Source of the DNA: an uncultured Desulfobulbaceae bacterium
Lineage (GTDB): Bacteria > Desulfobacterota > Desulfobulbia > Desulfobulbales > BM004
NCBI GenBank assembly: GCA_947258675.1
Contig: CAMYJP010000165.1
Location: 1-6,253 of the forward strand
Direction: 5' to 3'
Length of the DNA stretch: 6,253 nt
A model generated the notes under the pieces. The model saw only the letters and a program-made list of their open reading frames with translations, was not told where the DNA came from and ran no database searches. The stretch's first letter is position 1, and the number at the start of each line of letters is the position of its first letter. Shown here one piece after another: positions 4,114-6,253 of this stretch. Both the position numbers and the translations under genes were made by a program.

Positions 4114-4436
4114 ATAGTATTCGAACAACAGGGCTGGAAAAACACTACATCCAACCAGACGAAATATCTCCTGCTGTTGAATGCAATAATTGCAGTTCAT
4201 ATCCGCCTTCTATCTATTATTTATTTTCAAAGTATCTCATACCGTTGTGATTACTAAATCGATTTAATCCGCTAATTCGGATAATTGAAAAACATGCATT
4301 CCTTTTAATTATCTCGTCCCAATTCCACCTTACCTCTCTTGAAAATCTTTATTTAGTCCTCTTTTATAATACAGTTTATTTATGGAATGCTTGATCCTTT
4401 ATGCGGTTAGTGTGTTTATTCTCTTTTAGGGTAAAA

Positions 4437-4456
4437 TACCCCGCTGCTTGCAGCGC
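4437..4456. repeat. REP-like hairpin 1 (degenerate)
   Basis: CGCTG (4442-4446) and CAGCG (4451-4455) form a 5-bp stem around the loop CTTG (4447-4450). It is preceded by TACCC as in hairpin 2, but the matching GGGGTA on the right arm is replaced by CACCT, so the outer stem is lost. The upstream GGGTA at 4429-4433 can instead pair with TACCC at 4437-4441 around AAA. Confidence 0.5.
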
Positions 4457-4497
4457 ACCTTGATGTCGTAGTAAGTAACACGTAGTGTGGACTTTTA

Positions 4498-4600
4498 CGA
4501 ATCCAGAATCCAGAAACCAGAATTCATAATGAAAACAGAAAAGAATGGGGACATGAAAGGTCTTTTCTTCTGAATACTGGCTCCTGGGTTCTGACTTCTG
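4498..4600. repeat. Imperfect inverted repeat, about 28-nt arms
   Basis: The left arm (4499-4526) is built from repeated CCAGAA units, and the right arm (4572-4600) carries the imperfect complement with repeated CTGG/TTCTG units, roughly four bases in five matching. Inside, AGAAAAGA (4537-4544) pairs perfectly with TCTTTTCT (4561-4568) around a 16-nt loop. The segment can therefore fold into one long interrupted hairpin. No reading frame of note lies within. Confidence 0.55.
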
Positions 4601-4601
4601 A

Positions 4602-4625
4602 TACCCCGTGGCTTGCCGCGGGGTA
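4602..4625. repeat. REP-like hairpin 2 (intact)
   Basis: TACCCCGTGG (4602-4611) pairs with CCGCGGGGTA (4616-4625), a 10-bp stem with one G-T wobble and the loop CTTG (4612-4615). No T-tract follows it (GTTCATTCTC), so a repeat unit is more likely than an intrinsic terminator. Confidence 0.65.
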
Positions 4626-4680
4626 GTTCATTCTCTTATAAGGGTTAAATATCCATAGCTCGAATTCTTATGCTTATATA

Positions 4681-4904
4681 ATGGGGGTATTCCTTTCAAA
4701 GGATTATCGTGGCATAGAATTCAGTGTCGCTTATGAAAGCAGTTTGAAATTCTTCATTCAATTATTAGCAGATCAGAATATTCAATATGATGATTAAATA
4801 TATAAGGGACATCCTCATGATATTGACGATATTGAAAAAAAAAGTATGATAGTCTTGATTTGTTAGCCAGCCAGAACTTCAAAGGAGGCTATTATAACTT
4901 ATAA
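4681..4904 (+). pseudogene. Possible decayed small reading frame (unrecognised)
   Basis: ATG at 4681 opens 38 codons with protein-like composition, ending at TAA 4795-4797. The same frame continues directly after that stop with IYKGHPHDIDDIEKK. A run of nine A (4835-4843) lies where a +1 shift would give YDSLDLLASQNFKGGYYNL, ending at TAA 4902-4904. One nonsense change and one homopolymer slip would thus restore about 73 codons. No ribosome binding site precedes the ATG and I recognise no family. It could equally be chance in AT-rich DNA. Confidence 0.2.
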
Positions 4905-4984
4905 TTACCGGCAGCTCTAGATTCTAGGGAATTTTATAAACTCGATTTATTAATAAGGCGATTTAATTTCTGGGTAAGAACTAA

Positions 4985-5977
4985 ATGTCAATTCGAACTG
5001 ACTATGAAAAGAAACAAAAAACGGTCCTTTCCTCTTATGCGTGTATATCTACAATAGGCCGCATAAGGCAGGAAGAGGAATGTGCAATCAGAACCCCATT
5101 TCAACGCGACCGAAATCGTATAGTTTACAGTAAGGCCTTTAGAAGACTGAAACATAAAACTCAGGTTTTTCTTTCCCCGATGGGGGATCACTACCGTACC
5201 CGTTTAACTCATACCCTGGAAGTTTCAGAGATTGCCCGGACACTTGCACGAGCTTTACGTTTGAATGAAGATATAGTGGAGGCAATTGCCCTTGGACATG
5301 ACCTTGGGGAACTGGTCCCTGGCGGATTCTCCCATTACAGCCAGACCCTGCGAGTGGTCGATGTTTTAGAAAATGGAGGTACAGGACTTAATCTGACGTA
5401 TGAAGTGCGGGATGGTCTCGCCAAACATTCTAAAGGGTATGGGGTCGTTATCCCATCCCAACAAAAGGATATGCCTGATACTGCGGAAGGGAGTGTTGTC
5501 CGTTACGCGGATATTATTGCCTATCTCAGCCATGATCTCGATGATGCTATTCACAGCAGTGTAATTAGAGAAGCAGATATCCCGTCAATATGCACCAAGA
5601 TTCTCGGCACCAGTCATGCAAAACGTATTATGTCCATGATCAAGGGAGTGTTGGCTGCTACACTACCGGAAGAAGATAAATTGATTTTTGGTATCGATCC
5701 CTTAGTGGGAGAGGCCATGCAGGAGTTGAGGAATTTTCAGTATCATAATGTATATCGTTCGCCCCAGGTACATAACCAATTTATGAAAGCCTCCAAAATC
5801 TTGCGAGAAATTTTCTATTATTGCTTGGAGCACAGGGAATTTCTGGAAAAGAAAATGGGATCATTTGCTGTGAGTACTTCATTGGAGCGTCGTGTAGGTG
5901 ATTTCATTGCAAGTATGACAGATAGATATGCATTGATGCTTTACAGGGAAATATTTGAACCTAAATCTATCGTATAA
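4985..5977 (+). CDS. dgt: dGTPase-family HD-domain protein (deoxyguanosinetriphosphate triphosphohydrolase-like), catalytic loop missing
   Basis: Family members hydrolyse dNTPs, classically dGTP, to the deoxynucleoside and triphosphate in the cytoplasm, helping to set nucleotide pools. The 330-residue product matches the family along its length: FQRDRNRIVYSKAFRRLKHK (39-58), RTRLTHTLEV (71-80), GHDLG (104-108), GLNLTYEVRDGLAKHSKG (134-151), RYADIIAYLSHDLDDA (173-188). The HD-type metal ligands are in place: His76, His105, Asp106 and probably Asp176. However, GHDLG runs straight into ELVPGGF (109-115). The family normally has HTPFGHxGE plus a few residues here, so about 13 residues (39 nt) are absent in frame, including the His and Glu reported as catalytic in E. 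coli Dgt. Residues 116-119 are also HYSQ rather than the more usual HNxQ. The start fits the family N-terminus; the ribosome binding site (GGGTAAG, 4972-4978) is weak. The symbol marks family only: the product may be inactive, regulatory, or reflect a sequence error. Confidence 0.88.
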   Translation: MSIRTDYEKKQKTVLSSYACISTIGRIRQEEECAIRTPFQRDRNRIVYSKAFRRLKHKTQVFLSPMGDHYRTRLTHTLEVSEIARTLARALRLNEDIVEAIALGHDLGELVPGGFSHYSQTLRVVDVLENGGTGLNLTYEVRDGLAKHSKGYGVVIPSQQKDMPDTAEGSVVRYADIIAYLSHDLDDAIHSSVIREADIPSICTKILGTSHAKRIMSMIKGVLAATLPEEDKLIFGIDPLVGEAMQELRNFQYHNVYRSPQVHNQFMKASKILREIFYYCLEHREFLEKKMGSFAVSTSLERRVGDFIASMTDRYALMLYREIFEPKSIV

Positions 5978-6046
5978 TTCTTCCCCGCCCCACTTATTAA
6001 AAGTTTTTTTCCTTTTGCCGAGCGCACTTATTTAAAGGATTTATTC
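5978..6046 (+). promoter_or_regulatory. Short spacer with ribosome binding site for the downstream gene
   Basis: AAAGGA at 6034-6039 lies 7 nt before ATG 6047 and is a good Shine-Dalgarno. The rest of the 69-bp spacer is pyrimidine- and T-rich (a run of seven T near 6004-6010), but no stem precedes it, so no terminator is called and read-through from the dGTPase-like gene is possible. Confidence 0.5.
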
Positions 6047-6253
6047 ATGGAAGAGATTCCAAAACGAGGAAAAATTTTCAGATGGGTATATGGGAAATTG
6101 CCTTTGTTGTTCTGCATGATACTGGTTGCAACCATCATTATTTTTTATGGACGGATTAAGGATGCTCAGGATCAGTTGCTGGCTGAAAAAAAAGCTGTAT
6201 CCAAAATAGAGCGGCCTCCGGTAAATGTCGTAATTCAAGAACTTAAGCCAAAC
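6047..6253 (+). CDS. N-terminus of a membrane-anchored protein, probably an RND/HlyD-type periplasmic adaptor, 3' end outside window
   Basis: Sixty-nine codons are visible. A basic N-terminus (KRGKIFRW) precedes one hydrophobic segment (about residues 18-35). A charged stretch KDAQDQLLAEKKAVSKIERP follows, then PPVNVVIQELKPN at 57-69. An N-terminal anchor followed by a P-x-V-x-V-x-x-x-x-P strand is how membrane-fusion (AcrA/HlyD-like) subunits of tripartite efflux pumps usually begin. Such proteins bridge an inner-membrane transporter to an outer-membrane channel. The lipoyl, hairpin and beta-barrel parts would lie beyond the window, so the assignment rests on layout and this short strand. 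There is a good ribosome binding site. It is codirectional with the dGTPase-like gene, 69 bp downstream. Confidence 0.6.
   Translation, partial: MEEIPKRGKIFRWVYGKLPLLFCMILVATIIIFYGRIKDAQDQLLAEKKAVSKIERPPVNVVIQELKPN

Follow-up and report, generated by a model that had tools for sequence, protein, structure and literature searches.

Working bacterial dGTPases split dNTPs into deoxynucleoside and triphosphate, form hexamers or other oligomers, and combine three sequence features: HD and HD_assoc domains in a known fold, metal-ligand residues in the order H...HD...D, and a catalytic His-Glu dyad within the motif HxPFGHxGE. The gene at positions 4985-5977 of the window (the whole stretch of 6,253 nucleotides that was analysed) encodes a protein in which the domains are present and the metal ligands can be assigned by motif, while the dyad is absent. 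The question raised by this locus is whether such a protein represents a housekeeping enzyme that has recently been inactivated, a protein maintained for another role, an enzyme that works without the usual dyad, or an error in the sequence. We compared the protein with its relatives, modelled its structure and searched the surrounding DNA (Table 1) for traces that might separate these explanations.

A dGTPase homologue without its catalytic loop

The product scored above the cut-offs of Pfam PF01966 and PF13286 (the HD and HD_assoc domains), of the NCBIfam equivalog NF002327 (419.1 bits, cut-off 393) and of TIGR01353 (166.7 bits, cut-off 152.35). It also matched the PADLOC anti-phage dGTPase model PDLC02374 at 2.2e-59, but with the defence-subfamily model NF041026 it scored 138.7, below the cut-off of 400. 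Because the catalytic dyad is missing, the protein is best filed, as far as its sequence can tell, as a dGTPase homologue and not as a working dGTPase.

Table 1. Features of the window, in order of position
Feature	Position	Strand	Details and basis
Peptidoglycan glycosyltransferase / PBP1A-like gene	1-1515	complement	cut by the window's end
MltD-like lytic transglycosylase, 792 aa	1735-4113		six LysM stretches (family scan)
dGTPase homologue, catalytic loop absent	4985-5977	+	330 aa; ORF list, Pfam and NCBIfam
H76, first metal ligand by motif, retained	5210-5212	+	invariant column in alignment A1
H105-D106, HD motif, retained	5297-5302	+	invariant columns in alignment A1
Junction of the 39-nt (13-codon) gap, G108 (GGG) / E109 (GAA)	5308-5309	+	alignment and codons
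H117 of GGFSHY, retained	5333-5335	+	codon check and alignment A1
D176, fourth metal ligand by motif RYADIIAY, retained	5510-5512	+	at least 90% conserved in alignment A1
ORF downstream of the dGTPase gene	from 6047		cut by the window's end; no Pfam or NCBIfam match

The closest relative among the best 120 of 7999 matches is P0002, a deoxyguanosinetriphosphate triphosphohydrolase (NF002327, PRK01286.1-2), with 78% identity over its full length. The two proteins are alike in domains, metal ligands and C-terminus and differ in the 13-residue catalytic loop, which the window protein lacks. The window protein is 15 residues shorter in total, the loop accounting for 13 and the stretch CIS--TIGR in the N-terminal region for two; P0006, too, is two residues shorter there.

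A first-pass annotation of this DNA had proposed that the loop was deleted in frame directly after GHDLG, and the alignment of all 120 listed proteins bears this out, down to the residue numbering (L107 at 5303-5305, G108 at 5306-5308, E109 at 5309-5311, Q120 at 5342-5344). The residues HTPFGHAGETVL(N/D) are missing between G108 and E109, corresponding to positions 111-123 of P0002 (HTPFGHAGETVLD). The annotation was also right that the frame stays open to a normal C-terminus, FEPKSIV in the window protein vs FEPRSLV in its kin. Among the best 120 of 7999 matches, the gap is found in the window protein alone (1/120), which is also the only one with a core gap of at least four residues; HxPFGHxGE is present in 119/119 of the others, including the nearest kin at 76-78% identity, so that the deletion is shared by no listed relative and the gap is known from one contig alone.

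The comparison was extended by two loop-targeted searches, and the best 120 of 7999, of 3983 and of 5719 matches together gave 229 listed proteins, window included. HxPFGHxGE was matched by 226 of these, the exceptions being the window protein, P0124 and P0135, and none of the 228 others carries the 13-residue gap; the same loss in orthologues of several lineages, as expected of a conserved pseudoenzyme family, was thus not seen among them. As only the best 120 of each search were listed and the searches with 7999 and 5719 matches scored only candidates sharing most words, other loop-deleted relatives may exist beyond these. Internal core gaps outside the loop occur in P0161, P0215, P0217, P0221 and P0223 (5 of the 229). 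In P0135 the loop is present, with GHACE replacing GHAGE.

Taken with the conserved remainder of the protein, the restriction of the gap to this one sequence makes a recent deletion the best-fitting explanation; the most likely case is a private and recent loss of function, or else an error in the sequence, and not a new kind of protein. A loss shared with dGTPases of similar length that are carried on plasmids was rejected: H1-H3, matched over 331, 327 and 314 codons, all have the loop (HTPFGHMGE, HTPFGHAGE and HSPFSHAGE), and their shortness lies elsewhere. The Thermus thermophilus dNTP triphosphohydrolase (PDB 2dqb) reads HDLG and then HPPFGHTGEH, which is absent in the window protein. A dGTPase gene with its loop was also observed on a Monoglobus plasmid record (L003, 301-1299), directly before dnaG.

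A second loop deletion was found in P0124, a metagenomic dGTPase of 338 aa that surfaced in the search aimed at residues 88-132 and lacks 9 residues of the catalytic loop. Both deletions share the same right edge, before ELVPGGF; however, P0124 lost 9 residues and not 13, belongs to another clade and has an intact sister, P0157 (94% identical, SH-aLRT 82). A tree built from 83 of the 229 proteins after removal of the loop columns counts the two losses as separate changes, so such sequences do recur. A search with P0124's own loop returned no further loop deletion among the best 120 of 5719 matches. Because P0124 surfaced in a loop-targeted search, it is no evidence for a higher rate of loss in the loop than in the rest of the protein, and both loop-targeted searches are uninformative on deletion rates elsewhere. 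That loop loss is a recurrent and tolerated step in Desulfobacterota dGTPases, yielding dNTP-binding, non-hydrolysing subunits that join intact copies present in the genome or the population and damp their activity, is a speculation to which we attach very little weight.

Retained residues and predicted consequences

All four metal ligands that the first-pass annotation had listed as kept (H76, H105, D106 and D176) are in place by codon check. It had further described a nearby HNxQ motif as changed to HYSQ, and for this subfamily this was mistaken: in 185 proteins including the window's, the motif reads HYxQ in 136, HCxQ in 31, other forms in 18 and HNxQ in none, with HYSQ itself in 7. A second defect at this motif is thereby ruled out. 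H117 may correspond, judged by the order of the motifs, to SAMHD1 H233, the spacing from HD being +25 in P0002 and +27 in SAMHD1.

Spacing from HD also suggests counterparts for the missing residues. At +9 and +12, the deleted H116 and E119 (P0002 numbering) correspond to SAMHD1 H215 and D218 and to CloA H126 and E129; at +4, the missing H111 matches SAMHD1 H210. In published mutant data, SAMHD1 H215A has no measurable activity but retains nucleotide binding and tetramers, and D218A has a kcat about 40-fold lower (PMC7311409). The CloA double mutant H126A/E129A is termed catalytically inactive and was solved with dGTP in the active site (PMC12265719), and SAMHD1 H210 is described as forming salt bridges to phosphate oxygens (PMC8177086). 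The loss of the catalytic dyad claimed by the annotation is thus supported by the alignment and by these mutants, and from the latter the window protein would be predicted not to hydrolyse dNTPs.

Loss of the dyad need not abolish binding, since SAMHD1 H215A and CloA H126A/E129A, as their sources describe them, still bind. On this ground a maintained pseudoenzyme may be considered, with metal and dNTP binding kept and the protein serving either to sense dNTPs or, as an inactive subunit, to poison or tune an intact paralogue's oligomers; the retained metal ligands and flanking motifs would agree with it. However, the engineered proteins are point mutants that share with the window protein the loss of the catalytic His (and, in CloA, of the Glu), whereas the window protein lacks the whole loop and the helix that follows it. 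AlphaFold2 monomer models, which took in 60 and 59 of the 229 listed proteins, point the same way. The fold is kept, with a Z score to 2dqb_A of 32.0 (rmsd 2.7, 310 aligned) for the window protein and 38.1 (rmsd 2.1, 326 aligned) for an intact control, but there is no confident structure at the junction: pLDDT is below 50 at residues 109-119, while blocks 111-120 and 121-130 of the control reach 87 and 91, and the control helix at 116-125, beside the active site, is absent. The window also holds no intact paralogue or partner gene. As no other listed protein has the gap, a maintained sensing or regulatory role, one of three readings that the annotation had offered, lacks positive evidence and we regard it as improbable.

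An enzyme still active through other residues that replace the lost loop could draw on what remains of the invariant motif residues, H117 among them. The dyad His is, however, indispensable in SAMHD1 according to the mutant data cited (PMC7311409), and a motif scan of the window protein found no HxPFGHxGE elsewhere in it, and a catalytic loop supplied by another part of the protein was rejected on this ground. Continued activity is therefore the least probable of the explanations considered. In the part of the literature that was searched, no description of a naturally occurring dGTPase lacking this loop was found, which is not proof of absence.

Constraint on the protein and origin of the gap

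In the 83-protein tree, the end branch of the window protein measures 0.24 changes per column and ranks 22nd among the 83. Since the branches of the nearest kin from the same fork are about 0.16-0.26 (path lengths less 0.24), it is not accelerated. Private changes in columns conserved at at least 99% numbered 3/24 for the window protein vs 2/149 pooled over nine kin (Fisher one-sided, 0.02), and all three (L97I, S121T and E265Q) are conservative; in the 229-row alignment, the same test gave p values of 0.085, 0.031, 0.050 and 0.16 at thresholds of 0.99, 0.97, 0.95 and 0.90. The comparison is at most a hint of relaxed constraint on the protein. P0124 gave no sign of relaxation (0/5 private changes in such columns). 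An old pseudogene was rejected, with three changes against 7.9 expected if all 24 were neutral (P 0.04; a weak test). The ORF contains no stop codon, where only 1.2 would be expected under the same assumption. For dN/dS, a scan of genome contigs for relatives' DNA yielded a single locus, from Anaerolineae and 35% identical, and viral contigs yielded none.

The rival account is a sequencing or assembly error: the cell would carry an intact gene, from which 39 nt went missing in the sequence, for example through a chimeric or error-bearing read in a low-coverage stretch. A single contig of 6253 bases is the sole source of the protein, whose conserved remainder, ordinary end branch and clean frame are as expected of a working gene; P0124, likewise known from one contig, has a 94%-identical intact sister. 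On the other hand, the gap is exactly in frame, for which the chance is one in three, a working gene would not be expected to show the mild excess of changes seen at invariant columns, and no frame break was seen in the neighbouring genes by the ORF list and family scans. No direct repeat abuts both sides of the junction within 5200-5450, and among 10- to 12-mers within 5281-5330 the sole one counted twice is GGCAATTGCC, which is identical to its own reverse complement. This repeat result is a weak argument against a collapse, because just one of the repeat copies would be left after such an event. Slippage between direct repeats is subject to the same weakness, the repeats that occur in 5200-5450 not abutting both sides of the junction. 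An error is thus a close rival, and we consider it a serious possibility although not the favoured one.

Some further features of the DNA were observed outside the gene. The 871 bases between the MltD-like and dGTPase genes (4114-4984) hold no listed ORF of at least 60 aa. A terminator-like hairpin of 10 pairs lies at 4602-4625, with three such sites in 4114-6253 vs 1.5 expected, and a 7-base repeat, GAATCCA, is present in 3.6 copies at 4499-4523. No RNA family reached its gathering score.

A tentative account of the loss and its meaning

A recent in-frame loss-of-function deletion in a dispensable housekeeping dGTPase gene of a bacterium that, from the names of the protein's listed kin, looks Desulfobacterota-like, also among the readings offered by the first-pass annotation, fits best, the gap being private to this sequence, and we give it a probability of about 0.5. 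In this account, 39 nt would have been lost recently and in frame, removing the loop that bears the general-acid His and the Glu paired with it, as well as the following helix. The product would still be made and would retain its four metal-ligand residues and most of its fold, presumably without dNTP hydrolysis. The loss would be tolerated, the dGTPase gene being dispensable in at least one studied bacterium: a Caulobacter mutant without Dgt (FssC) was grown and shows a catalysis-dependent cell-cycle phenotype (PMC12186491), which makes tolerance plausible by analogy. Several points speak against a recent loss, namely the weak signal of relaxation, the ordinary end branch, the lack of a stop codon, the single contig and the unrelaxed state of P0124.

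The finding matters under either of the two leading explanations. If the gap is an error, in-frame assembly defects can pass family cut-offs unnoticed. If the deletion is real, it serves as a warning that profile models still name a loop-less protein an active dGTPase, above the equivalog cut-off, and it would be a natural and clean loss of a dNTPase catalytic loop, an example of how dispensable enzymes vanish.
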